DNA of 37,930 bases from the NCBI GenBank assembly GCA_029547805.1, contig JAKPOP010000002.1, positions 1 to 37,930 of the forward strand, in the 5' to 3' direction. This document shows positions 25,356 through 36,493 of this stretch, one piece after another (positions within the stretch are counted from its first letter, which is position 1; the number at the start of each line of letters is the position of its first letter). The position numbers and the translations under genes are program-made. This stretch comes from Deltaproteobacteria bacterium. Its GTDB lineage: Bacteria; Myxococcota_A; UBA9042; DTJE01. The notes beneath the pieces were generated by a model. It saw only the letters and a list, made by a program, of their open reading frames with translations. It was not told the DNA's origin and did not search any database.

Positions 25356-25385
25356 AGACTACCGCAGCGTCCACCCTCCCGTCAA
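25356..25385 (-). promoter_or_regulatory. Possible internal promoter for bamD-cdnL-repeat-cdsA
   Basis: Minus-strand TTGACG (25385-25380), which overlaps the stop of the upstream gene, is followed after 18 bases by TAGTCT (25361-25356). The start would lie about 24 bases before bamD. The -10 match is only partial. Confidence 0.35.
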
Positions 25386-26212
25386 TAGGGAGAAGCGGCG
25401 CGCCCCTCGGGGCCGAGACCTGGCGGTTCCTTGGCCTCGGCATGCCGGCGGTAGCGATCCAGCACCTTGCGGACGTAGCCCCGGGTCGGCTCGTCGGGAG
25501 GTCCTCCGGCCCGGATGACCGCCGATGCGCCGGCATAATAGGCGGCGAGCGTCTTCTCCAGGTCCCCCTGGAACCGATCCGACAGGCGCCGCAGGAGACG
25601 GGCCCCTCCCAGGATGTTCTGTTCCGGATCGAAGGGGTCCACCACCTCCAGGGCGTCGGCGGTGACCGGCATCAGCTGCATCAGGCCCTGGGCCCCTGCC
25701 GGCGAGACGACATCGGCCCGAAACCCCGACTCCACCTCGATGACGGCCAGCAGCATGGCCTCGGGGATCCCCGTCTCCGCCGCGGCTCGAGTCACCAGTC
25801 GGCGGATCTCCTGGTCGAATGGTTCCTGGCCCTTCGCCCGCCCGGGCCTCGGGGTGCCCGATTCGGCAGCCTCCTGGGCGCCTCCTCCGCGTTCCGATGC
25901 CTCCCCGGGCACGGACCGGTTGTAGATCCAGGAAACCCCGTCCTTCTCGCAGACGAAGAAGATGGTGGTCCGGAAGCGCATCGAGCGACAACGGGCTCCC
26001 TTGGGATGGGAGGGTTCGCTGGCCTTCCGGCTGTCCAGGTAGACGCGGCACCGTGCCGAAGAGGGGCGGGTATTGATGTAGAACCCCACGTTGCCTTGTC
26101 GATCCCGGCACTGCCAGACGGTGTCGGCCCGTCCCGGCGACGGCCAGAGGCAGGCCACCAGCAGGATCGCCGTGGCCCCTCCCCGGATGTCGAAGGCTCG
26201 CCGGAAGGACAC
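25382..26212 (-). other. Candidate internal start for a separate secreted SLT protein
   Basis: GTG at 26212 is in frame with the fusion and preceded by AAGGGGGCG. Starting there would give a 276-residue protein with a normal signal peptide and an SLT lytic transglycosylase domain. The spacing of the purine run to the GTG is short, so this start is uncertain. Confidence 0.35.
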
Positions 26213-27247
26213 CGCCCCCTTCAACACGAACCATCCCCCGAAGACCAGCAACTGGAGCAACTGGAACGTCCAGACCAGCAGAGCGAACGCCAGTCCCCCG
26301 GGATGCCCGGCAGGGACCCCGTAGAGTTCCATGGGCTTCAGCAGGAAGTACCAGAAGGACCCGACGTTCGCCGGTGCGTTGGGAATCATCATCCCGATCA
26401 CGATGGTCGACATCATCGCGAAGGCGCCCAGCATGGGCACTCCGAGCCCCGTCCATCCCCCCAGGTCGGTCCGGACCTCGAAGGCCTGGCCCAGGAGGAA
26501 GAGCCCCACCCCGTTGCTGAGCCAGTAGAGGAACGACAGCAGGAAGAAGGCCCCGATGTTCCCCGCCGAGGGCAACAGCCCCAGCCCTTCCAGGAACCGC
26601 TCGGTGGCCCCCTGGAGGCGGGCCCCCCAGCGGGGGGAGAGGTGGTGGACCAGCCACCGCACTCCCTCGGCAACCCGCTTCCGAAAGAGAATCAACACCC
26701 CCAGGACCAGGGCGCTTCCCAGGAAGACCGCCAGGGCCAGGTAGGTCCCCCACCGGATCTCGGAGAAGGACTGGGCATTGTGGCGCGGCAGGAAGACCAG
26801 GGCCGTCGCCAGGAACCCCGCCACCATGACCCCGTCCACCAGCCTCTCGACCACGATGGTGGCCAGCGCGGCAGACCTCCGGATGTCCGACTCGGTGGAC
26901 AGCAGTGCCGGGCGGACCAGTTCTCCCAGACGCATGGGCAACAGGAAGACCGCCATGAATCCCACGGAGCAGACCCGGTTCAGTGTCCCGAAGCCGATCC
27001 GCTGCATCGGTGCCAGGAGCGGCTGCCACCGCCAGACCCGGAAGACGTGCATGACCACCAGGGACGCGAAGTAGAGCCCCAGGCTGGCCAGGGGAACCCG
27101 CCAGGAGGAGGTGGCCAGCACGCCCTGTCGGAGGGTCACGCCCCCCTCCAGCAGGCGATCCACCGGCCATTCCCGGAAGGCCAGCCAGATGAAGAAGGCC
27201 CCGATCCCGATCGAGACCCCCCACTTCAGGATGCCCTGGACCTTCAA
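25382..27247 (-). CDS. Fusion: flippase-like (YbhN/LPG-synthase TM type) plus SLT lytic transglycosylase
   Basis: One open frame of 621 codons. Residues 1 to about 335 are polytopic and match the lysylphosphatidylglycerol synthase transmembrane/YbhN family (RVWRWQPLL, FLLPMRLGELVRPALL, ERLVDGVMV, PNAPANVGSFWYF). At residue 346 a GTG begins a signal-peptide-like stretch (positives, GATAILLVACLWPSPGRA, then DTVWQC). There follows a DUF4124-like Cys-containing region and, from about residue 480, an SLT family 1 domain with catalytic Glu in AVIEVESGF and GLMQLMP, AAYYAG. The TTG start at 27247 is chosen over an ATG 26 codons upstream because GGGAGGAGG precedes it and it clears the neighbouring gene. 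It is either a true fusion of a lipid transporter-like and a peptidoglycan-cleaving protein or two nested genes. Confidence 0.8.
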   Translation of the reverse strand: MKVQGILKWGVSIGIGAFFIWLAFREWPVDRLLEGGVTLRQGVLATSSWRVPLASLGLYFASLVVMHVFRVWRWQPLLAPMQRIGFGTLNRVCSVGFMAVFLLPMRLGELVRPALLSTESDIRRSAALATIVVERLVDGVMVAGFLATALVFLPRHNAQSFSEIRWGTYLALAVFLGSALVLGVLILFRKRVAEGVRWLVHHLSPRWGARLQGATERFLEGLGLLPSAGNIGAFFLLSFLYWLSNGVGLFLLGQAFEVRTDLGGWTGLGVPMLGAFAMMSTIVIGMMIPNAPANVGSFWYFLLKPMELYGVPAGHPGGLAFALLVWTFQLLQLLVFGGWFVLKGAVSFRRAFDIRGGATAILLVACLWPSPGRADTVWQCRDRQGNVGFYINTRPSSARCRVYLDSRKASEPSHPKGARCRSMRFRTTIFFVCEKDGVSWIYNRSVPGEASERGGGAQEAAESGTPRPGRAKGQEPFDQEIRRLVTRAAAETGIPEAMLLAVIEVESGFRADVVSPAGAQGLMQLMPVTADALEVVDPFDPEQNILGGARLLRRLSDRFQGDLEKTLAAYYAGASAVIRAGGPPDEPTRGYVRKVLDRYRRHAEAKEPPGLGPEGRAASPY

Positions 27248-27272
27248 GACCTCCTCCCAGGATCCGGGTGGT

Positions 27273-27722
27273 TCACGGATGTTCCGACCCCGGGGCGTCG
27301 GCCCCTTCCCATCGCTCCGGGGCAATCCCGGTCCGGATCAGAACCCATCGCCCGGACCGTTCTTCCCAGGTCTGGAGCAGGCGGACCGGTCGGACCACCA
27401 GCGAGTCGGCCTGTCTCGCCTCCAGCGTCACCAGGACCAGCGCCCGGAGGGGGTCCTTCCGTTCCTGGCCATGGAGGAAGCGCACCGTCTCGACCTGGAA
27501 CTCCTCCATCTGGAGCCCGTTCCTCCGGTCCCCATGGAGGGACCGGAAGTCCTCCATGGCATCCCCCGAGACATAGGACGAGGCCCGCTCCAGGTCCTTG
27601 GCCTTCAGGTGATGGTGGTAGGCCCGAAGAGCCTCGTCGAGTCGATTCGCCGACGACATCTCCGACGCGCATCCAGCCAAGGCGCATCCCGCCAACAGGA
27701 TCGGCCACCAGCGACTTCTCAT
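27273..27722 (-). CDS. Small lipoprotein, possibly NTF2-like
   Basis: A 149-residue protein with signal MRSRWWPILLAGCALAGC, lipobox LAGC at residue 18. The mature part reads like an NTF2/SnoaL-type alpha-plus-beta fold (LDEALRAYHHHLKAKDLERASSYVSG near the N-terminus, WVLIRTG near the C-terminus), but I assign no function. A GGGAGAGGGC site precedes the ATG. It is the first gene of the envelope run and lies 25 bases before the TTG of the flippase/SLT gene. It is divergent from the Mla operon. Confidence 0.75.
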   Translation of the reverse strand: MRSRWWPILLAGCALAGCASEMSSANRLDEALRAYHHHLKAKDLERASSYVSGDAMEDFRSLHGDRRNGLQMEEFQVETVRFLHGQERKDPLRALVLVTLEARQADSLVVRPVRLLQTWEERSGRWVLIRTGIAPERWEGADAPGSEHP

Positions 27723-27912: not shown

Positions 27913-28353
27913 GTGAAGATCGCCATCCCTACCGACGACGGCGTCTTCCTCTCGGCGAGCCTCTCTCGCGCCGCCTCGTTCGTCGTCGCCGAGGTGGCCC
28001 TCGGGGAGGTCCTCCGGGTCGAACGGCGCATGCACCGGCCCCCCGTGCGATCCCCCCGAAGGATGCGCCGGGACCCCTGGCGGACCCGCTACAGCGCGGT
28101 CGCCGACACCCTCCGGGACTGCCAGGCCCTGATCACCAGTTCGGTCGGGGCGACCTTCCGCCGCCTCCTCATCCGCCGCGGCCTGGAGGTGCTGGTCACC
28201 TCCGAACTGCTGGTGGACCGGGCCATCGCCCTCTTCGCCCGCATCTCCCTCCCCGACGAGTACGACGGAGACGCCGAGTACGCGGGCATCCGGAGGCTCT
28301 CGGACCTTCCGGACGAGGGGCCTCCCATCCCGGACGACGAATTCGATGCCTGA
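27913..28353 (+). CDS. NifX/NifB-type (dinitrogenase cofactor-like) domain protein
   Basis: A 146-residue protein starting at GTG with GGAGG five bases upstream. The N-terminal strand KIAIPTDDGVFLSASLSRAASFVVAEV, the later DTLRDCQALITSSVGATFRRLLIRRGLEVLVTS segment and the compact alpha/beta layout match the dinitrogenase iron-molybdenum cofactor biosynthesis domain family (NifX, NafY, NifB C-terminus). A basic insert (RRMHRPPVRSPRRMRRDPWRTR) and an acidic tail are unusual. No nif gene is present, so nitrogen fixation is not implied. It is first in the Mla operon and overlaps the first ATPase gene by eight bases, implying a linked role. Confidence 0.75.
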   Translation: MKIAIPTDDGVFLSASLSRAASFVVAEVALGEVLRVERRMHRPPVRSPRRMRRDPWRTRYSAVADTLRDCQALITSSVGATFRRLLIRRGLEVLVTSELLVDRAIALFARISLPDEYDGDAEYAGIRRLSDLPDEGPPIPDDEFDA

Positions 28354-29095
28354 TGCGGCCCGGCTCGACGACGTGCACATCACCCTCTCGGGGATCCCCT
28401 GTCTTCGGGGAGTCCATCTGGCCCTGGAGGCGGGGAGGATGCACGCCCTGGTGGGTCCCGGCGGTTCGGGAAAGACCCTGATCCTGAAGACCCTCGCGAC
28501 CCTGCTGCCCCCCGATTCGGGGACGGTGGCCCTCTTCGGGGAACCGGTGGCCTTCGGGGACGAGGATCGCCTTCGAGCCGTCCGGTCCCGCATCGGCGTC
28601 CAGTTCCAGAACCTCGCCCTCTTCGACTTCCTCACCGTCGGAGAGAACGTGGCCCTGCCCCTGGAGGAGGTCTCGCCTCCCCTCTCCCCGGCCGAACGGA
28701 ACCACCGGGTGGCGGACAGCCTTCGATCCGTCCGACTGCCCGAGGTCGCGGACCTGCCGATCCAGGCCCTCTCCGGGGGCATGCAACGACGCGTCGCGGT
28801 GGCCCGTGCGGCCGTGGCCCGGCCCGACCTGCTGCTCTTCGACGACCCGGCCGGAGGCCTCGACCCCGTCACCACGTCCCGGATCTTCGACCTCATCGCC
28901 CGGGAACAGCAGGAGTCGTCCGCCACCGTGGTCATCTCCTCCCACGACATTCCCCGCCTCGCCCGCTGTTGCAGCCGGTTCCATCTGGTGGACTCCGGCA
29001 GCATCCTCTTCAGCGGGTCCCTCACCGAGGCCCTTCGGCATCCCGATTCCCGAGTCCGGGACTTCTTCCAGGAGGTGCAGGATGCCGACCGGTAG
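28346..29095 (+). CDS. mlaF: Mla-type ABC ATPase 1, with Walker B Glu replaced by Asp
   Basis: A 249-residue ATPase of the MlaF class for phospholipid transport at the inner membrane. Walker A is GPGGSGKT (37-44), Q-loop Gln88, signature LSGGM (142-146), D-loop GLDP, H-loop His200. Walker B reads LLLFDDP: the catalytic Glu expected after Asp166 is Asp167. So the signature is canonical but the Walker B base is altered. The operon's other ATPase shows the reverse, suggesting they pair. It overlaps the NifX-like gene by eight bases and the following permease gene by 14. Confidence 0.93.
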   Translation: MPDAARLDDVHITLSGIPCLRGVHLALEAGRMHALVGPGGSGKTLILKTLATLLPPDSGTVALFGEPVAFGDEDRLRAVRSRIGVQFQNLALFDFLTVGENVALPLEEVSPPLSPAERNHRVADSLRSVRLPEVADLPIQALSGGMQRRVAVARAAVARPDLLLFDDPAGGLDPVTTSRIFDLIAREQQESSATVVISSHDIPRLARCCSRFHLVDSGSILFSGSLTEALRHPDSRVRDFFQEVQDADR

Positions 29096-29900
29096 TCCCC
29101 CTGCCCTTCCCGCCCGGCCCATCCCCCCCTGGGCCCTGCCCCTGGCCCTGCTGGGCCGTGGCGTGCTGCGTGCCTGCGAGGTGATGGGGGGCATGACGCT
29201 CTTGCAGGTCCGCATCCTCCGGGCCCTGATCCCCCCGACCTTCGACCGGGACGAGACGATCCGACAGGCATACAAGATCGGGGTCCAGTCCGTCGCCGTG
29301 GTGACCTTGACGGCCCTCTTCGTCGGAGGGTTGATGCTGGTGCAGACGGGTCCCTTCGTCCGGCGAACGGGGGCCACGGGAATGGTGGGCTGGGGGACCG
29401 GGCTGGCCACCCTGGCGGAGGTGGGCCCGGTGCTGATCGGCCTGATGTTCGGAGGACGGGTGGGGTCCAACAACGCCGCCGAACTGGGGACGATGGTGAT
29501 CACCGAACAGGTGGAGGCCCTTCGGCTGCTGGGCATCGACCCGATCCGCTATCTGGTGGTCCCCCGCTTCCTGTCGATGATCGTCATGCTGGTGCTGCTG
29601 ACCTGCATCGGGGACCTGGCGGCCCTGGTCGGCGCCTCGGTGGCATGCCAGGCCATCCTGGGCATCGAGGTGCGGGTCTTCTGGCAAGGGCTCATCGACG
29701 GACACCTGCTGGACGAGTTCCTGATGGGGCTCGTGAAGGGCTTCTTCTTCGGCGGTGCCATCGGCATCGTCTCATGCCATTACGGGCTCCGGGTCACCGG
29801 AGGAGCCACCGGCGTGGGACGGGCGGTGAACGAGACCGTGGTCACCAGCGCCATCGCGATCTTCGTGGTGAACTTCCTGGTGACCTCCCTGTGGGTCTGA
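29082..29900 (+). CDS. mlaE: MlaE-family permease 1
   Basis: A 272-residue inner-membrane permease of phospholipid/retrograde lipid transport. It has a coupling helix near the N-terminus and about five to six membrane segments. Conserved MlaE motifs are visible: AEVGPVLIGLMFGGRVGSN, then AAELGTMVITEQVEAL and DPIRYLVVPRFLS. The ATG at 29082 follows AGGAGG at six bases and overlaps the ATPase 1 stop by 14 bases. The N-terminus has a Pro/Ala-rich cap. The next gene is a second, clearly different permease, so the transporter may be built from two unlike halves. Confidence 0.93.
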   Translation: MPTGSPPALPARPIPPWALPLALLGRGVLRACEVMGGMTLLQVRILRALIPPTFDRDETIRQAYKIGVQSVAVVTLTALFVGGLMLVQTGPFVRRTGATGMVGWGTGLATLAEVGPVLIGLMFGGRVGSNNAAELGTMVITEQVEALRLLGIDPIRYLVVPRFLSMIVMLVLLTCIGDLAALVGASVACQAILGIEVRVFWQGLIDGHLLDEFLMGLVKGFFFGGAIGIVSCHYGLRVTGGATGVGRAVNETVVTSAIAIFVVNFLVTSLWV

Positions 29901-29905
29901 CCGGC

Positions 29906-30673
29906 ATGAAGGCGACATCACGCAGGAAACCCGTCCTCCCGCCCCTGGTCCGGGAGCCCCTCCTGCTGCTGGGGCGCACCCTCGCGGCAACGATCCGGCG
30001 GCCACCGCCCAGGCATCGCCTCCTGGCCCAGATGCACAACGTCGGCAACCGGTCCGTGGTCTTCATCGCCGTGACCCTGGGGTTCCTGGGCCTGATCCTG
30101 GTGTATCAGGCCTGCGTCCAGACCCTCAAGGTCCTCCCGGACCTCTCGGGGGTCGGCGGCGCCTTCCTCTATGCGATGGTCCGCACCTTCGGTCCCACCG
30201 TGACGGGCCTCATGGTGGCCACCCGGGTCGGCGCGGGGATCGCCGCCGAACTGGGGTCGATGACCGTGACGGACCAGGTGGAGGCCCTGAAGGTGGCCAA
30301 CAGCGACCCCGTCTCCTGGCTCGTGGTTCCCCGGTTCCTGGCCTGCGTGGTGATGATGCCGGTCCTCTGGGTCGTCGGGACCCTGGTGGGGTCCTTTGCC
30401 GGATACCTGATGGGGCACTACCGGTTCGCCATCGGGACCCGCATCTTTCTGGACTTCTCCGGGATCGCCCCCATCGACGTCTTCTTCGGGTACCTGAAGG
30501 CCCAGACCTACGGCATCGTGATTCCGATCCTGTCGGCCCACGCTGGTTTCCAGGCCTTCGGCGGGTCCGAGGGCGTCGGTCAGGCGACCACGGCCGCCGT
30601 CGTGCGGTCCTCGTTCGTGGTGATCGTGCTGGATTTCGTGATCTCGACGATGGCGTTCCTGATGGGACACTGA
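29906..30673 (+). CDS. mlaE: MlaE-family permease 2
   Basis: A 255-residue paralogue of permease 1 with the same layout and motifs (GPTVTGLMVATRVGAGIAAE, then LGSMTVTDQVEALKVAN and LVVPRFLA). The N-terminus is basic and cytoplasmic (MKATSRRKP). The ATG at 29906 is five bases past the permease 1 stop; a GTG five codons upstream is an alternative and no strong ribosome-binding site favours either. It is followed after seven bases by ATPase 2. The F-E-E-F gene order looks like a mirrored pair rather than two copies of one unit. Confidence 0.92.
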   Translation: MKATSRRKPVLPPLVREPLLLLGRTLAATIRRPPPRHRLLAQMHNVGNRSVVFIAVTLGFLGLILVYQACVQTLKVLPDLSGVGGAFLYAMVRTFGPTVTGLMVATRVGAGIAAELGSMTVTDQVEALKVANSDPVSWLVVPRFLACVVMMPVLWVVGTLVGSFAGYLMGHYRFAIGTRIFLDFSGIAPIDVFFGYLKAQTYGIVIPILSAHAGFQAFGGSEGVGQATTAAVVRSSFVVIVLDFVISTMAFLMGH

Positions 30674-30680
30674 GGCAACC

Positions 30681-31424
30681 ATGATCGCCTTCGAGGGGCT
30701 CTGCAAGGCGTTCGACGGGCGGCCGGTCCTCGCGGGGATCGACCTGCAGATGCGGGGAGGGGAGATCACCTTCGTGATCGGGTCCTCGGGGACCGGCAAG
30801 AGCGTCCTGATGAAGCACGCCGTCGGCCTCCTCTTCCCCGACGCCGGCCGAGTGATCCTGGACGGCGAGGACACCGCGACCTTCTCGGAGGACCGCTGGC
30901 GGGAGGCCCGGCGGCACTACGCGATGGTCTTCCAGCACCCCAACCTCTTCGACAGCATGACGCTTCGGGAGAACGTCGCCCTCCCCCTCCGGATGCACCG
31001 GCGCATCGCCCGGGACCGGGCCCTCGCCGAGGCGGAGTCCTTCCTTCACCAGGTCGGCATGGCCTCGAAGGCGGACCTCCTTCCGGCCCAGGTCGGCCCC
31101 TCGGAACGCAAGCGCGTGAGCATCGCCAGGGCCCTCACCCTGGACCCGGACTGGGCGATCCTGGACGAGCCCACCACCGGCCTGGACCCGGTGGCGGCTC
31201 GGAGCATCGACCGCCTGGCGACTCGTCTCTGCCGGGAAATGGGCAAGTCCGTCGTGGTCGTCTCCCATGACCTGACGAGCATCTTCACGATTGCCGACCG
31301 GATCATCTTTCTGTATAAAGGCCGCGTCCGCCTGGACGGGGCCCCCGACGACTTCCGCCGCAGCGAGGACCCGGTGGTCCGGCAGTTCATCACCGGTGCC
31401 CCGGACGGACCCATGGAGACCTGA
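30681..31424 (+). CDS. mlaF: Mla-type ABC ATPase 2, with degenerate signature motif
   Basis: A 247-residue MlaF-class ATPase. Walker A GSSGTGKS (34-41), Q-loop Gln85, Walker B ILDEP with Asp162 and catalytic Glu163, D-loop GLDP, H-loop His196 are all canonical. The ABC signature, normally LSGG(Q/M), is replaced by VGPSE (138-142) directly before RKRVSIARAL. Loss of the signature Ser-Gly-Gly means it should not complete an ATP site on a partner, while its own Walker motifs could act with a partner's intact signature. ATPase 1 offers exactly that. It is followed after three bases by the MCE gene. Confidence 0.93.
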   Translation: MIAFEGLCKAFDGRPVLAGIDLQMRGGEITFVIGSSGTGKSVLMKHAVGLLFPDAGRVILDGEDTATFSEDRWREARRHYAMVFQHPNLFDSMTLRENVALPLRMHRRIARDRALAEAESFLHQVGMASKADLLPAQVGPSERKRVSIARALTLDPDWAILDEPTTGLDPVAARSIDRLATRLCREMGKSVVVVSHDLTSIFTIADRIIFLYKGRVRLDGAPDDFRRSEDPVVRQFITGAPDGPMET

Positions 31425-31427
31425 GGG

Positions 31428-32420
31428 ATGACCGACCGCACCCGATCGCTGGAATGGAAGGTGGGAGGTCTGATCCTCACGGCCGTCGCTCTGCTGGTCT
31501 TGTTCCTGGTCCTGCTGGGTGACTTCCGGTGCGAGAAACGGGTCCCGGTGACCGTGGACTTCCCGACCTCGGCGGACCTCAAGGTGGGCGCCCCGGTGAA
31601 GGTCTCGGGGGTCACGGTGGGAAAGGTGACCCGGGTGGACCTCTGGGGGGGGCGGCCCGACCCGGACCGAGGCAACCGGCCCGTCGGGGTGCGGGTGACC
31701 CTGGCCATCGACGCCGATGCCGCGGCGATGCTGCGCCAGGACGCCCTGTTCCGGCTCACGACGCTGGGAATCCTGGGGGAAAAGTACGTGGAGGTCTCCC
31801 CGGGGTCCCTCGAGTCTCCGACGGTTCCGGCGGAGTTCGTCTTCGTCGGGAAGGGACCGATGAACCTCGACGCCGTCGGGTCCGACGCCGGCAGCCTGGT
31901 GGCGGACCTGTCGTCCTTTCTGGCCGAGAACCGGGAGAACCTCCGGGAGAGCATCGCGAACATCCGCCAGGTCACGGCCCGGGCCAACGAGATCCTCGAG
32001 GAGAGCCGCCCCGTGATCCAACGAACCCTGGCCCGCCTGGACCAGATCTCGGCCGGGGTCGCCCAGGAGACCCGCAACGGCGCGACGGTCGGTGAAGCCA
32101 TTGTGGCCGTCCGCGACCTGGCCCGGAACCTGGACCGGGGGATCGGACCGGTGCTGGAGGCCCTGCCGGGGACCGTCCAGGAAGTCCGTCGTCTGGCGAC
32201 CGACGGCAGCCAGATGGCCCGGGAACTCGCGGCCCTGGTCGTCGCAGCCCGGCCGGACCTCCTGGCCCTGGTCGTCCAGATTCGCGGCATCGTCCAGGGG
32301 ATTGCCGAGGGCAAGGGAACGGTCGGGGGCCTCCTGGTGGACCGGGAGATCTACGACGACCTGGTGGCACTGATGAAGGACATCAAGCGCCATCCCTGGC
32401 GTCTGCTTCTCAAGGACTGA
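31428..32420 (+). CDS. mlaD: MCE-domain (MlaD-like) periplasmic lipid-transport protein
   Basis: A 330-residue protein anchored by one N-terminal helix (residues 13-30) and carrying one MCE domain (about 39-125; VTVDFPTSADLKVGAPVKVS, VGKVTRVDL, TTLGILGEKYVEVSPGS). The remaining about 200 residues are a long helical/coiled-coil segment (SSFLAENRENLRESIANIR, and GTVGGLLVDREIYDDL near the end). MCE proteins form hexameric rings or needles that bridge the periplasm and carry lipids between the membranes. This one is longer than MlaD and closer to the LetB/PqiB/Mce-like class with a helical tube. It is the last gene of the operon; no MlaA, MlaB or MlaC gene is seen. Confidence 0.93.
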   Translation: MTDRTRSLEWKVGGLILTAVALLVLFLVLLGDFRCEKRVPVTVDFPTSADLKVGAPVKVSGVTVGKVTRVDLWGGRPDPDRGNRPVGVRVTLAIDADAAAMLRQDALFRLTTLGILGEKYVEVSPGSLESPTVPAEFVFVGKGPMNLDAVGSDAGSLVADLSSFLAENRENLRESIANIRQVTARANEILEESRPVIQRTLARLDQISAGVAQETRNGATVGEAIVAVRDLARNLDRGIGPVLEALPGTVQEVRRLATDGSQMARELAALVVAARPDLLALVVQIRGIVQGIAEGKGTVGGLLVDREIYDDLVALMKDIKRHPWRLLLKD

Positions 32421-32595: not shown

Positions 32596-32711
32596 CCGTC
32601 CGCCCGGGTTCCCCGGGGACCCGACGTCGCCTGCCGGACGACAGGCACGGCGCGGGCCGACGGACCGACGGAGGTGGCTGATCGCCTCCCTTGAAACGAG
32701 AGGGCAGGAAC

Positions 32712-34472
32712 ATGCAGATTGGCTTGTTGATCGCCGTGGTCGGTGCCCTGGTGGGTCTCATCGGCGGCCTCTCGGTCCCATGGGTGGATTCCGAGGTCGT
32801 TCGCTTCACCGATGAAACGCTCTTCCAGGGCGTCGCCTGGTGGGACGGGATCCTCTCGATGATCCTCACGGCGGTCGGCCTGGCCTGTGCAGGCATCGCC
32901 CTGGCGACCCACCGCAAGAAGCCCCTGGCCACTGCCGGACTCGTGGCCGCGGGCCTGTCCTTCGTCTTCCTGTTCCTGGTCCCCTTCACCGTCCGCTCCG
33001 AGATGCTCGCGATGGTGCAGCAGGGCACGATGAAGGCCCACACCCAACTGGCGATGTTCTACGGTTACCATCTGATGTTCCTGGGGATCGTGGTCCAGGT
33101 CGTGGGATTCGTCTGGACGCTGTCGGCCCAGCCCATCCTCGGGCCCGACGACCGACTCCTCCGGGTCGCGCTGCTCTGGGACGGGAAGATCATCAAGGAA
33201 ACCACCTTCACCGAGAAGCGCGACATCACCATCGGCGAGGCGGTCTCCTGCGACTTCATCGTCCCGGACCCCGCCGTGGGCCGATCCCTGGCCCTCTTCC
33301 GCTTCGACAAGAAGGGGATGTACCAGGTCGCCCTGTCCCGGGACTTCCAGGGGCGGGTCAACCTGGACAACCTGCTGCTCCCGATCCGGGACTACGTGAA
33401 GAAACACACCAGCGACGCCAGTGGCCTGAACTACGTGAACGTCCAGAAGGGCGACTGGGGCGTCTTCGAGTTCGGGAAACGGGAGGTCTTCTTCCAGTTC
33501 GTCCGTCCCGACGTCATCATCGGCCGCAGCACCGCGATGTCGATGGACGGGAACTTCATCGCCGCGACGGTGGGGTCCCTGTTCGTGCTGGTCTCCCTGT
33601 GGGTCTACTCCCAGTTCGCCTGGGACCCCACCCAGAAGGTCGAGCAGCGCCCGGCGGAGCGCCGCCTGCTGAAGGTCGAGGCCAACGTCACCATGGAAAA
33701 GGAGGAGACGCTCCTCGAGATCGGCGAGGAGGACGACTCGGTTGGCAAGCGGGCCGAGGGCGAGGAAGGCAAGTTCGGCGACCCGGACAAGGACCCGAAC
33801 CTCGAATCCAAGGTTCCCCGGCGCGACGGGGCCCTGGCGGCCCGCATCGACCCCAAGAAGGTGGGACTGGCGGACCTGCTCTCGAACCGGATGGGGCAGT
33901 CCGGCGCCATCTCCTCGATCCTCTCGGACAACGCCGACGCCTTCGAGAACCGGATGGCGGTGGCCATGGCCGGGACCGGTTCGGAACTGGTGGTCGGCTA
34001 CGGCGCCGGGGGCATGGGCTTCAAGGGAACCGGCCCCGGTGGCGGCGGCACGGGCGGCTACGGGCGCATCCACGGCCTCGGGCGGGTGGATACCGGTGGC
34101 GGCATGGGCATGAGGGCGGGCCTCGGCAAGAAGGGCACGAAGAGCGTCGGCAAGATGTCGCTGGGCGGCATGGGCGCGACGGGCTTCTGCCAGCGGAACA
34201 ACATCCAGGCGGTCGTGATGCAGCGGGCCGGTGCGATCCGGGCCTGCTACGAGCAGCAGTTGCAGATTTACGAGAGCCTGGCGGGGAAGGTGTCGGTTCG
34301 CTGGACCATCGACCTGGAAGGACGGGTCTCCGATGCCACCGTGGTTGATTCCTCTCTGGGCAACGATGCCGTTGTCCAGTGCGTGCTGCGGACCATCCGC
34401 AACATGCGGTTCGCAAAGCCGGAGGGCGGCATCTGCGTGGTGCAGTGGCCCTTCGTCTTCAATCCTGGTTGA
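32712..34472 (+). CDS. Membrane protein with AgmX/PglI-type C-terminal domain (GltJ/AgmX-like)
   Basis: A 586-residue protein. Four membrane segments lie in residues 2-137, followed by a cytoplasmic FHA-like or ligand-sensing region (about 150-265, RVALLWDGKIIKETTFTEKRDITIGEAV), a fifth membrane segment (280-302), a charged linker, a Gly-rich segment (about 430-480) and a C-terminal domain. The C-terminal domain (ACYEQQLQIYESLAGKVSVRW, with VQWPFVFNPG at the end) is the AgmX/PglI-type domain that resembles the TonB C-terminus. Its neighbours are one ExbB and two ExbD genes, so it is probably the force-transmitting partner of that motor. Start at ATG 32712 with GGGCAGGAAC before it; a TTG seven codons earlier is possible. 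Confidence 0.82.
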   Translation: MQIGLLIAVVGALVGLIGGLSVPWVDSEVVRFTDETLFQGVAWWDGILSMILTAVGLACAGIALATHRKKPLATAGLVAAGLSFVFLFLVPFTVRSEMLAMVQQGTMKAHTQLAMFYGYHLMFLGIVVQVVGFVWTLSAQPILGPDDRLLRVALLWDGKIIKETTFTEKRDITIGEAVSCDFIVPDPAVGRSLALFRFDKKGMYQVALSRDFQGRVNLDNLLLPIRDYVKKHTSDASGLNYVNVQKGDWGVFEFGKREVFFQFVRPDVIIGRSTAMSMDGNFIAATVGSLFVLVSLWVYSQFAWDPTQKVEQRPAERRLLKVEANVTMEKEETLLEIGEEDDSVGKRAEGEEGKFGDPDKDPNLESKVPRRDGALAARIDPKKVGLADLLSNRMGQSGAISSILSDNADAFENRMAVAMAGTGSELVVGYGAGGMGFKGTGPGGGGTGGYGRIHGLGRVDTGGGMGMRAGLGKKGTKSVGKMSLGGMGATGFCQRNNIQAVVMQRAGAIRACYEQQLQIYESLAGKVSVRWTIDLEGRVSDATVVDSSLGNDAVVQCVLRTIRNMRFAKPEGGICVVQWPFVFNPG

Positions 34473-34517
34473 TCCCGAGGAAGGGCGTCGGCCCCAGGGG
34501 GGCCGCTGGTTGGGAAG

Positions 34518-34547
34518 TTGACAACCCGGGTTCAGGGCTGCTATAGG
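34518..34547 (+). promoter_or_regulatory. Promoter of exbB-exbD-exbD
   Basis: A perfect TTGACA (34518-34523) is followed at 17-18 bases by CTATAG/TATAGG (34541-34547). The expected start near 34554 leaves a leader of about 100 bases. It lies after the AgmX-like gene, so the motor genes can be expressed independently of it. Confidence 0.6.
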
Positions 34548-34654
34548 GGTTTACCGCGCTTGGCGTCCCGAGGGATCCTTCAGCGCGGGGTTGCCTGTGG
34601 GATGGTTCCCCGCGAGGGGAGAGAGTCGAGGCCAGCAAGAGGAGGAGTGCAGCA

Positions 34655-35314
34655 ATGTTCGAGTTCATCGCAACGGCGTTCGAGAAGGGTGGCGCCAACA
34701 TGTACATCATCCTGGCCACGTCGATCTTCATGTTCGGCGTGATCATCGAGCGCGTGGTGGTGCTCTACTTCCAGTCCAACGTGGACAAGGAGGGGTTCAC
34801 CCGCGTGCTCACGAAGTACATCCTGGTGGGCGATCTCAAGAATGCGCTGAAACTGTGCTCCATCTCCAAGTTCCCGCTGGCGAAGGTCCTCCAGGCGGGC
34901 CTGATGAAGGCCAAGGAGTCCGACGGCGCGGTGCAGGCGGCGATGGACGAGGCGGCCCTCCGGGAGCTGCCCCGCATCGAGAAGCGCATCGGCTTCCTCG
35001 CGGTCATCGGGAACGTGGCCGTGTTGATGGGCCTCCTGGGGACCATCTTCGGTCTGATCCGGTCGTTCGGCGCCGTGGCCGAGGCCGATGCCGCCTCGAA
35101 GGCCACCGAGCTGGCGAAGGGAATCTCCGAGGCCATGTACAACACGGCCTTCGGCCTCGCGGTCGCCATCACCGCGTCGCTGGCCTACGCCATCTTCCAG
35201 GCGAAGTCCCAGCAGCTGGTGGACGACATCAACGAGACCACGGTGTCCGTGTTGAACCTGATCACCGCGAACCGGGACAAGTTCGACAACGAGAAGTCCG
35301 GCCGGGGCGAGTGA
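34655..35314 (+). CDS. exbB: ExbB/TolQ/MotA-family proton channel protein (AglR-like)
   Basis: Inner-membrane subunit of a proton-driven motor that energises work across the periplasm. The 219-residue protein has three membrane segments: about residues 14-35, 105-130 and 150-175. Conserved family features are GLLGTIFGLIRSFG in the second and ISEAMYNTAFGLAVAI in the third, with the channel-lining Thr residues. AGGAGG precedes the ATG. Two ExbD genes follow directly, a one-to-two ratio as in the Myxococcus AglRQS motor. Which substrate or motility system it drives cannot be read from the sequence; TolA, TolB and Pal are absent. Confidence 0.93.
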   Translation: MFEFIATAFEKGGANMYIILATSIFMFGVIIERVVVLYFQSNVDKEGFTRVLTKYILVGDLKNALKLCSISKFPLAKVLQAGLMKAKESDGAVQAAMDEAALRELPRIEKRIGFLAVIGNVAVLMGLLGTIFGLIRSFGAVAEADAASKATELAKGISEAMYNTAFGLAVAITASLAYAIFQAKSQQLVDDINETTVSVLNLITANRDKFDNEKSGRGE

Positions 35315-35400
35315 GGCCAGTGAGGGACATCCGGCCCTGCCTGTTCGCGTCGTCCTGACGGCGAGAACGGGCGGGGACGGTGTCGATCCAGGAGGCAACG

Positions 35401-35877
35401 ATGAGCGGTCCCCAAGAGATCAGCAAGGGCGGGAAGAAGACCCTCGGCATCTCCCTGAACCTGGTGCCGATGATCGACCTCTTCTCGGTCTGCATCACGT
35501 TCCTTCTGATCACCGCGGTCTGGACCCAGACCGGACGCATCAGCGTGGACCAGTCGGTCCAGAAGCCCCAGAAGCAGCAGCAGACCGAGCCGCCCAAGCG
35601 CCTGACCATCCTGCTGGACAAGAACGGCTACGTGGTGAAGTTCGCGGACCTGCGCCCCGAGTCCCTGCCGAAGGTGGGAGACAAGTATGACACCGTGGGG
35701 CTCCGGAAGAAGGTCGAGGAGCTGAAGCTCCCGAAGGACCAGAAGGTCATCGTGGCCCCGGAGGACCAGGTCGCCTATGCCGACATGATCACGGCGATGG
35801 ACACCTGCATGTCGCTGGGCATGGCGAACGTCGTCGTGGCCGATGCGAACTCCGTGGCCGGTGAGATGGAGAAGTGA
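35401..35877 (+). CDS. exbD: ExbD/TolR-family protein 1 (AglQ-like)
   Basis: A 158-residue single-pass inner-membrane protein. The membrane helix carries the essential proton-carrying Asp in NLVPMIDLFSVCITFLLIT. It is followed by a Gln/Pro-rich linker (VQKPQKQQQTEPPK) and a periplasmic ExbD/TolR domain. ATG at 35401 with AGGAGG five bases upstream. It works with ExbB; the second ExbD gene is 43 bases downstream. Confidence 0.93.
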   Translation: MSGPQEISKGGKKTLGISLNLVPMIDLFSVCITFLLITAVWTQTGRISVDQSVQKPQKQQQTEPPKRLTILLDKNGYVVKFADLRPESLPKVGDKYDTVGLRKKVEELKLPKDQKVIVAPEDQVAYADMITAMDTCMSLGMANVVVADANSVAGEMEK

Positions 35878-35920
35878 CGGCGTCGGGACGCCACAGGCGC
35901 CCCCGCCAGGAGGAGAACCG

Positions 35921-36493
35921 ATGGCCATCAAGGCACCGGGCAGCCGAATCGGCTCCAGCGTGAACATGAAGGGGCTGAAGGTCGGGGGCAAGGGCGCCCG
36001 CAGGGCGATGCTCTTCGACCTGAACCTGACGCCCATGATCGACATGTTTTCGATCCTCGTCGTCTTCCTGCTGATCACCTTCTCCGCCACGGGCGAGATC
36101 CTGATGCAGCAGAACGACATCCGTCTCCCGAAGGCCTACTCCGGGAGGCCGCTGGACCGCTATCCCCTGATCGGCATCTCCAGCCAGTCCCTCGTCTTCG
36201 AAGGCGAGGAGGTCATGAAGACCACCCTGGTGGCCGAGAAGAACTACCCGGACCTGCGCCTGCCGGACCTGTCGAAGGTCCTCAAGGCCGCCCGGGAGTC
36301 CTACGAGCGCGCCCGCCCGATGCCGGCGGACAAGGAGAAGGCCGAGAAGTGGCTCGAGGAGTCCCGCCAGATCATCATCCAGGCGGACGAGGCGATCCCC
36401 TTCGAGGTGATCCGGCTGGTGATGACCACCGCGGCCATCGAGGGGTATTCCTCCATCAACTTCGCGATCATCAAGAAGGCCAAGGGGACCTGA
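35921..36493 (+). CDS. exbD: ExbD/TolR-family protein 2 (AglS-like)
   Basis: A 190-residue paralogue of ExbD protein 1. The helix contains the conserved Asp (LNLTPMIDMFSILVVFLLITF). It has a basic N-terminus and a periplasmic domain longer than that of ExbD 1, with a charged helical insert (LKAARESYERARPMPADKEK) in the middle. ATG at 35921 follows AGGAGG. Two unlike ExbD proteins with one ExbB suggest a hetero-oligomeric motor, as in AglRQS. Confidence 0.93.
   Translation: MAIKAPGSRIGSSVNMKGLKVGGKGARRAMLFDLNLTPMIDMFSILVVFLLITFSATGEILMQQNDIRLPKAYSGRPLDRYPLIGISSQSLVFEGEEVMKTTLVAEKNYPDLRLPDLSKVLKAARESYERARPMPADKEKAEKWLEESRQIIIQADEAIPFEVIRLVMTTAAIEGYSSINFAIIKKAKGT

Follow-up and report, generated by a model that had tools for sequence, protein, structure and literature searches.

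Can a lipid transporter of the MCE type be driven by a pair of ATPases that differ from one another in their catalytic motifs? The question is raised by the window analysed here, the whole stretch of 37,930 nt that begins contig JAKPOP010000002.1 of a Deltaproteobacteria bacterium (assembly GCA_029547805.1), where a tightly packed operon on the + strand consists of a gene with a Nitro_FeMo-Co domain, a first MlaF-like ATPase (F1), two MlaE-family permeases (E1 and E2), a second MlaF-like ATPase (F2) and a MCE gene. Judged by its encoded parts the F1-E1-E2-F2-MCE unit (28346-32420, +) is an ATP-binding cassette (ABC) lipid transporter of the MCE type, and it very probably works through an obligate F1:F2 ATPase heterodimer on an E1:E2 permease heterodimer, with one of its ATP sites degenerate.

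The two ATPases

F1 (249 aa; 28346-29095, +; PF00005, 3e-31) is an open reading frame (ORF) with Walker A GPGGSGKT, the signature LSGGM (28769-28783, +), a D-loop GLDP and a retained switch His200 (codon at 28943-28945, +), whereas its Walker B reads LLLFDDP, in which Asp167 (codon GAC, 28844-28846, +) aligns with the catalytic Glu of E. coli MlaF. F2 (247 aa; 30681-31424, +), recognised from its ORF and motifs, has Walker A GSSGTGKS, Walker B ILDEP with Glu163 (codon GAG, 31167-31169, +), which is the predicted catalytic Glu of the consensus site, a D-loop GLDP and a retained His196, and it is the signature that is degenerate, with VGPSE (31092-31106, +) replacing LSGGM. The initial annotation of the window had placed both ORFs at these ends and had read the signature and Walker B of each in the same way. 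F2 is MlaF-like by sequence, MlaF chains ranking first among its PDB matches, and F1 by fold, the top PDB match of its AlphaFold model (mean predicted local distance difference test score 94) being E. coli MlaF with a template modelling score of 0.88-0.92. Neither reaches the NCBIfam equivalog level of MlaF (PRK11831), with 128 bits for F1 and 158 for F2 against 441.

Each ATP site of an ABC dimer is shared between subunits, the Walker motifs and switch His coming from one and the signature and D-loop from its partner (PMC12038006). In an F1:F2 dimer the hydrolysing site would consist of Walker A, Glu163 and His196 of F2 with LSGGM and the D-loop of F1 supplied in trans, and the degenerate site of Walker A and Asp167 of F1 with VGPSE of F2, a combination that probably binds ATP and hydrolyses it poorly. 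The degenerate site may act as a hinge, keeping the ATPases joined to one another and imposing a one-sided cycle, the dimer being seated on E1:E2 beneath a MCE ring or tube. We infer the physical pairing, the unequal ATPase activity, the hinge role, the lipid substrate and the direction of transport.

Motif conservation across F-E-E-F operons

The motifs were surveyed in 109 operons of the order F-E-E-F gathered from Myxococcota and relatives, many of the source genomes being metagenome-assembled; these comprise 74 operons that are non-redundant by exact sequence, to which the counts below refer, and 57 that remain when the set is thinned at 80% identity. In 74/74 the F2 signature no longer contains SGG, the forms found including VGPSE, VGPPE, VAPSE, xGDGM/L, LSDGM, LPAGE, LSAGQ, INQSD and others, yet Walker A, the Glu and the His of F2 are retained in every operon. 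F1 retains SGG in 73 of the 74 (the exception being LAGGL) and carries a catalytic lesion in all of them, Glu and His never being found together (0/74). Written as catalytic residue and switch residue, the lesion is Asp/His in 46 operons, Glu/Ser in 25, and Glu/Asn, Asp/Ser and Asp/Gln in one each.

The initial annotation had suggested checking whether the Glu-to-Asp change in F1 and the change from LSGG to VGPS in F2 co-occur in homologous operons, and had stated that their independent occurrence, or sequencing error at the motif codons, would speak against an asymmetric pair. A lesion in F1 and loss of SGG in F2 do go together, without exception, and independent occurrence was not borne out; what did not hold is the specific form of the first change, as one clade, which includes the Polyangiales, loses the switch His instead. 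Sequencing error or chance can be rejected since the lesion pattern recurs in relatives, whose F2 proteins are 52-89% identical. Combined into composite sites, the motifs yield one consensus and one degenerate site, as had been claimed: every scored element is intact at the F2-Walker/F1-signature site in 73/74 operons (LAGGL again being the exception), and the F1-Walker/F2-signature site, where the non-canonical catalytic residue of F1 and the non-canonical signature of F2 meet in 74/74, shows two or more lesions in every operon.

These lesions bear on whether a heterodimer might hydrolyse ATP at both sites, with Asp and the VGPSE-like signatures tolerated and the pairing serving only the asymmetry of the permeases. 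Asp could permit some residual activity, and the last Gly is kept in many F2 signatures (xGDGM), but the doubly or more damaged site is found in every operon and is reached by alternative routes, through loss of either Glu or His; moreover no residual activity was attributable to the degenerate site of the heterodimeric exporter TM287/288 (PMC5216877). Hydrolysis at both sites would therefore seem unlikely.

Column entropy divides in the same manner. The variable side comprises F1 Walker A (0.44 bits), the F1 Walker B catalytic pair (0.47) and the F1 His (1.12), together with the F2 signature (0.83) and F2 D-loop (0.61), whilst on the constant side Walker A, Walker B and the His of F2 are all at 0.00 bits and the SGG signature and D-loop of F1 at 0.03 and 0.00; the D-loop thus obeys the split, being GLDP in every F1 but not fixed in F2. 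Given the trans arrangement of ABC sites, a division of entropy by composite site points to a heterodimer. It could instead be supposed that the operon encodes two transporters, an F1 homodimer with one permease and an F2 homodimer with the other, which share or compete for the MCE protein, as MlaF and MceG are homodimeric in solved MCE complexes (PMC10094684, PMC9882608) and the operon does contain two unlike permeases. Each homodimer would, however, have two defective sites, with Asp or no His twice in the one and a degenerate signature twice in the other. The constant signature and D-loop of F1, the variable ones of F2 and the reverse pattern in the Walker motifs would be left unexplained, as would the nearly invariable joint retention of E1 and F2 that is described below. 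Two unlike ATPases with complementary lesions would on these sequences argue against a homodimeric ATPase, and we regard two separate transporters as very unlikely.

The mean column entropy of F1 is higher than that of F2 (1.72 against 1.26 bits), which is what might be anticipated if F1 were a decaying paralogue and F2 acted alone. When compared with homologues from the same genus the ratio of nonsynonymous to synonymous substitution rates (dN/dS) is 0.12 for F1 and 0.16 for F2, within a range of 0.09-0.16 for all five genes, so that both ATPase genes are under purifying selection and F1 can be rejected as a pseudogene. With SGG near-invariant and GLDP invariant in F1, with F1 retained in operons throughout the phylum, and with an F2 that by itself would have no intact signature, decay of F1 is extremely improbable.

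Operons of the same phylum with a single ATPase (E-F-MCE) served as a control, and in these LSGGM, Glu and His are present in 19/19; the motifs are also intact in MlaF of E. coli and A. baumannii. Four further operons that appeared to have a single ATPase (LGDGM or IGDGL) proved to be fragments with F2 genes and one permease in reach, and were removed from the control set.

Phylogeny of the ATPases and permeases

In a tree of the ATPases built with the motif columns removed, F1 and F2 each fall on one side of a branch (Shimodaira-Hasegawa-like approximate likelihood ratio test (SH-aLRT) support 98 and 100), apart from the single MlaF-like ATPases. The same is true of E1 and E2 (SH-aLRT 99 and 99), encoded in the window between the two ATPases at 29082-29900 (+; 272 aa; PF02405, 1.4e-65) and 29906-30673 (+; 255 aa; PF02405, 2.9e-53). 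With 221 and 181 bits against a PF02405 cut-off of 22.5 both clearly belong to the MlaE family, and both are under the NCBIfam MlaE cut-offs of 315 and 212; the two unlike permeases in F-E-E-F order, followed by the MCE gene, are thus as originally described.

Within F1, the state that combines Glu with Ser or Asn forms one group that includes Polyangiales, Labilithrix and Polyangiaceae records. The F1 tree needs two changes in the catalytic column, three in the His column and approximately four in the joint state. There are then two real routes by which the F1 sequences appear to have lost catalysis, from Glu to Asp, which is the type found in the window, or from the switch His to Ser or Asn with the Glu kept. 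The clade that keeps Glu and loses His would serve as a natural experiment to learn which of the catalytic residues has to be lost.

Distribution of the asymmetric operon

Relatives of the operon are found in Myxococcota and in records whose titles give Deltaproteobacteria, Bradymonadales or, once, Oligoflexales. Among named records the closest match is Myxococcota bacterium Go_SlDig_bin_299, whose E1 is 93% identical, and the carriers include a cultured species, Lujinxingia vulgaris (L125). A plasmid search gave matches from other phyla with identity up to ~42%. When 284 genomes sampled from the phylum were scored for presence, using score gaps chosen by eye, an E1-type permease was found in 122 and an F2-type ATPase in 123; both are present in 117, only E1 in 5, only F2 in 6 and neither in 156. 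The co-occurrence of E1 and F2 holds even where the operon is split, as in one family (f6; L039, L041, L043-L046, L065-L072 and L291-L296) in which F1-E1, E2 and F2-MCE lie at three loci and the parts are retained. Loss of F1 and E1 in this family, hinted at by F2-MCE without its neighbours, was rejected as F1-E1 and E2 are found at the other loci. From these sequences the lopsided design appears to have been retained in a large part of the phylum Myxococcota.

Complementary motif conservation, four separate clades and co-occurrence in genomes are together what an obligate heterodimer with one degenerate site predicts at the sequence level. Three observations weigh against it. The first comes from F1 genes with no F2 in reach, a further 32 that are non-redundant, where the lesion is present in 31; the lone exception, in genome G254 (L109/L198), has lost neither Glu nor His, but its D-loop reads GRDP, and the F2 of this genome, encoded on a different contig (L301), still has a signature FGDGM and a D-loop NVDP. 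Secondly, some F2 signatures are only partly degenerate (LSDGM, xGDGM), and these sequences would make residual function of the second site possible. Thirdly, the F1 tree implies few independent lesion events, and the operon counts are therefore not counts of independent events.

A wider proposal, to which we would give about an even chance, is that these operons represent an obligately asymmetric class of MCE system across much of Myxococcota, in which the degenerate site is actively maintained through alternative lesions (Glu or His lost) and in which the movement of lipid through a sixfold MCE tube is powered by a single ATP per cycle and governed by a fixed left-right polarity.

Comparison with known systems

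In MlaFEDB, MlaF and MlaE are homodimeric and are joined by MlaB (PMC10094684). The phospholipid transporter MlaFEDB of E. coli, A. baumannii and P. aeruginosa shares with the operon a MlaF-like ATPase, MlaE (PF02405) and MlaD/MCE (PF02470) in one operon; the operon described here differs in having two unlike ATPases with complementary lesions, two unlike permeases and an MCE protein of greater length, and among the operon genes scanned none was recognised as MlaB-like. In mycobacterial Mce1 a YrbE1A/YrbE1B permease heteromer lies under the MCE assembly and MceG is homodimeric (PMC9882608). The two unlike permeases resemble YrbE1A/B in this respect, whereas the Mce1 MceG homodimer has a long C-terminal extension and the ATPases here differ from each other and are without the extension.

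The design of the ATP sites is one familiar from exporters of drugs and peptides, and the closest likeness is to a group of heterodimeric exporters with a degenerate site, namely TM287/288, MsRv1273c/72c, BmrCD and TAP. These exporters are fused half-transporters of a transmembrane domain and a nucleotide-binding domain and belong to another fold type, whereas the ATPases and MlaE permeases in the window are separate ORFs and the ATPases would be separate subunits of an MlaE-family lipid transporter. In TM287/288 the degenerate site, where Walker B has an Asp and the signature departs from consensus, maintains contact between the ATPases whilst the consensus site hydrolyses (PMC5216877), and it is this pair of lesions, opposite a consensus site, that is found again in F1 and F2, a resemblance the initial annotation had rightly pointed out. 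By analogy with TM287/288, the site of F2 is expected to drive the cycle and that of F1 to serve as a hinge with ATP bound. The degenerate site of MsRv1273c has Asp497 and Gln528 (PMC12038006), and the same pair of residues occurs in one relative of the operon (L035). The sequences would thus suggest a transporter that works like a degenerate-site heterodimer yet stands outside the exporter families having that design, and the open-access literature searched yielded no description of an MCE system with a heterodimeric or asymmetric ATPase.

Most work on degenerate ATP sites has dealt with exporters, and by one account the purpose of such sites is not yet fully understood (PMC5216877); finding the same asymmetry in an unrelated permease family would be an independent test of what the dead site is for. 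Furthermore there is debate over the direction of Mla-type transport, as the title of PMC10212509 indicates, and one working site combined with two unlike permeases would make it possible to examine whether asymmetry has any influence on it.

A separate pair of MlaF-like ATPase domains is fused in a 580-aa ORF (L077:4203-5945, +), tandem domains being present also in L073, L075 and L078. The first domain of L077 has LSGGM/DEP/His and the second ISNGQ/DEP/His, and there is no adjoining MlaE gene. By its motifs the fusion may be a second, covalently linked asymmetric pair; if so, asymmetry would be a recurrent trait of MlaF-like ATPases, the fusion being encoded in the same phylum.

The MCE protein and neighbouring genes

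The MCE/MlaD protein (330 aa; 31428-32420, +; PF02470, 1.4e-18) passes the family cut-off with 67 bits against 25.1. It comprises an N-terminal transmembrane helix, a single MCE domain and an extended helical C-terminus, and its AlphaFold model has a helix at residues 2-30, a well predicted beta domain at 38-142 and, from residue 147 onward, helices modelled with low confidence. Such an architecture would be compatible with a periplasmic tube, but beyond residue ~150 the model is too uncertain for a tube to be claimed.

The Nitro_FeMo-Co (NifX/NafY-like) domain gene (27913-28353, +; PF02579, 26.7 bits) overlaps the start of F1, and in the same family homologues of it often precede F1. After the MCE gene the window contains a TonB_C-like protein, then ExbB and two ExbD genes (32691-36493, +), and several relatives have a homologue of the TonB_C-like gene downstream of their MCE gene. 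On the other side, a single ORF on the - strand (25382-27325) combines a membrane domain of the lysylphosphatidylglycerol synthase type with a lytic transglycosylase (SLT) domain.

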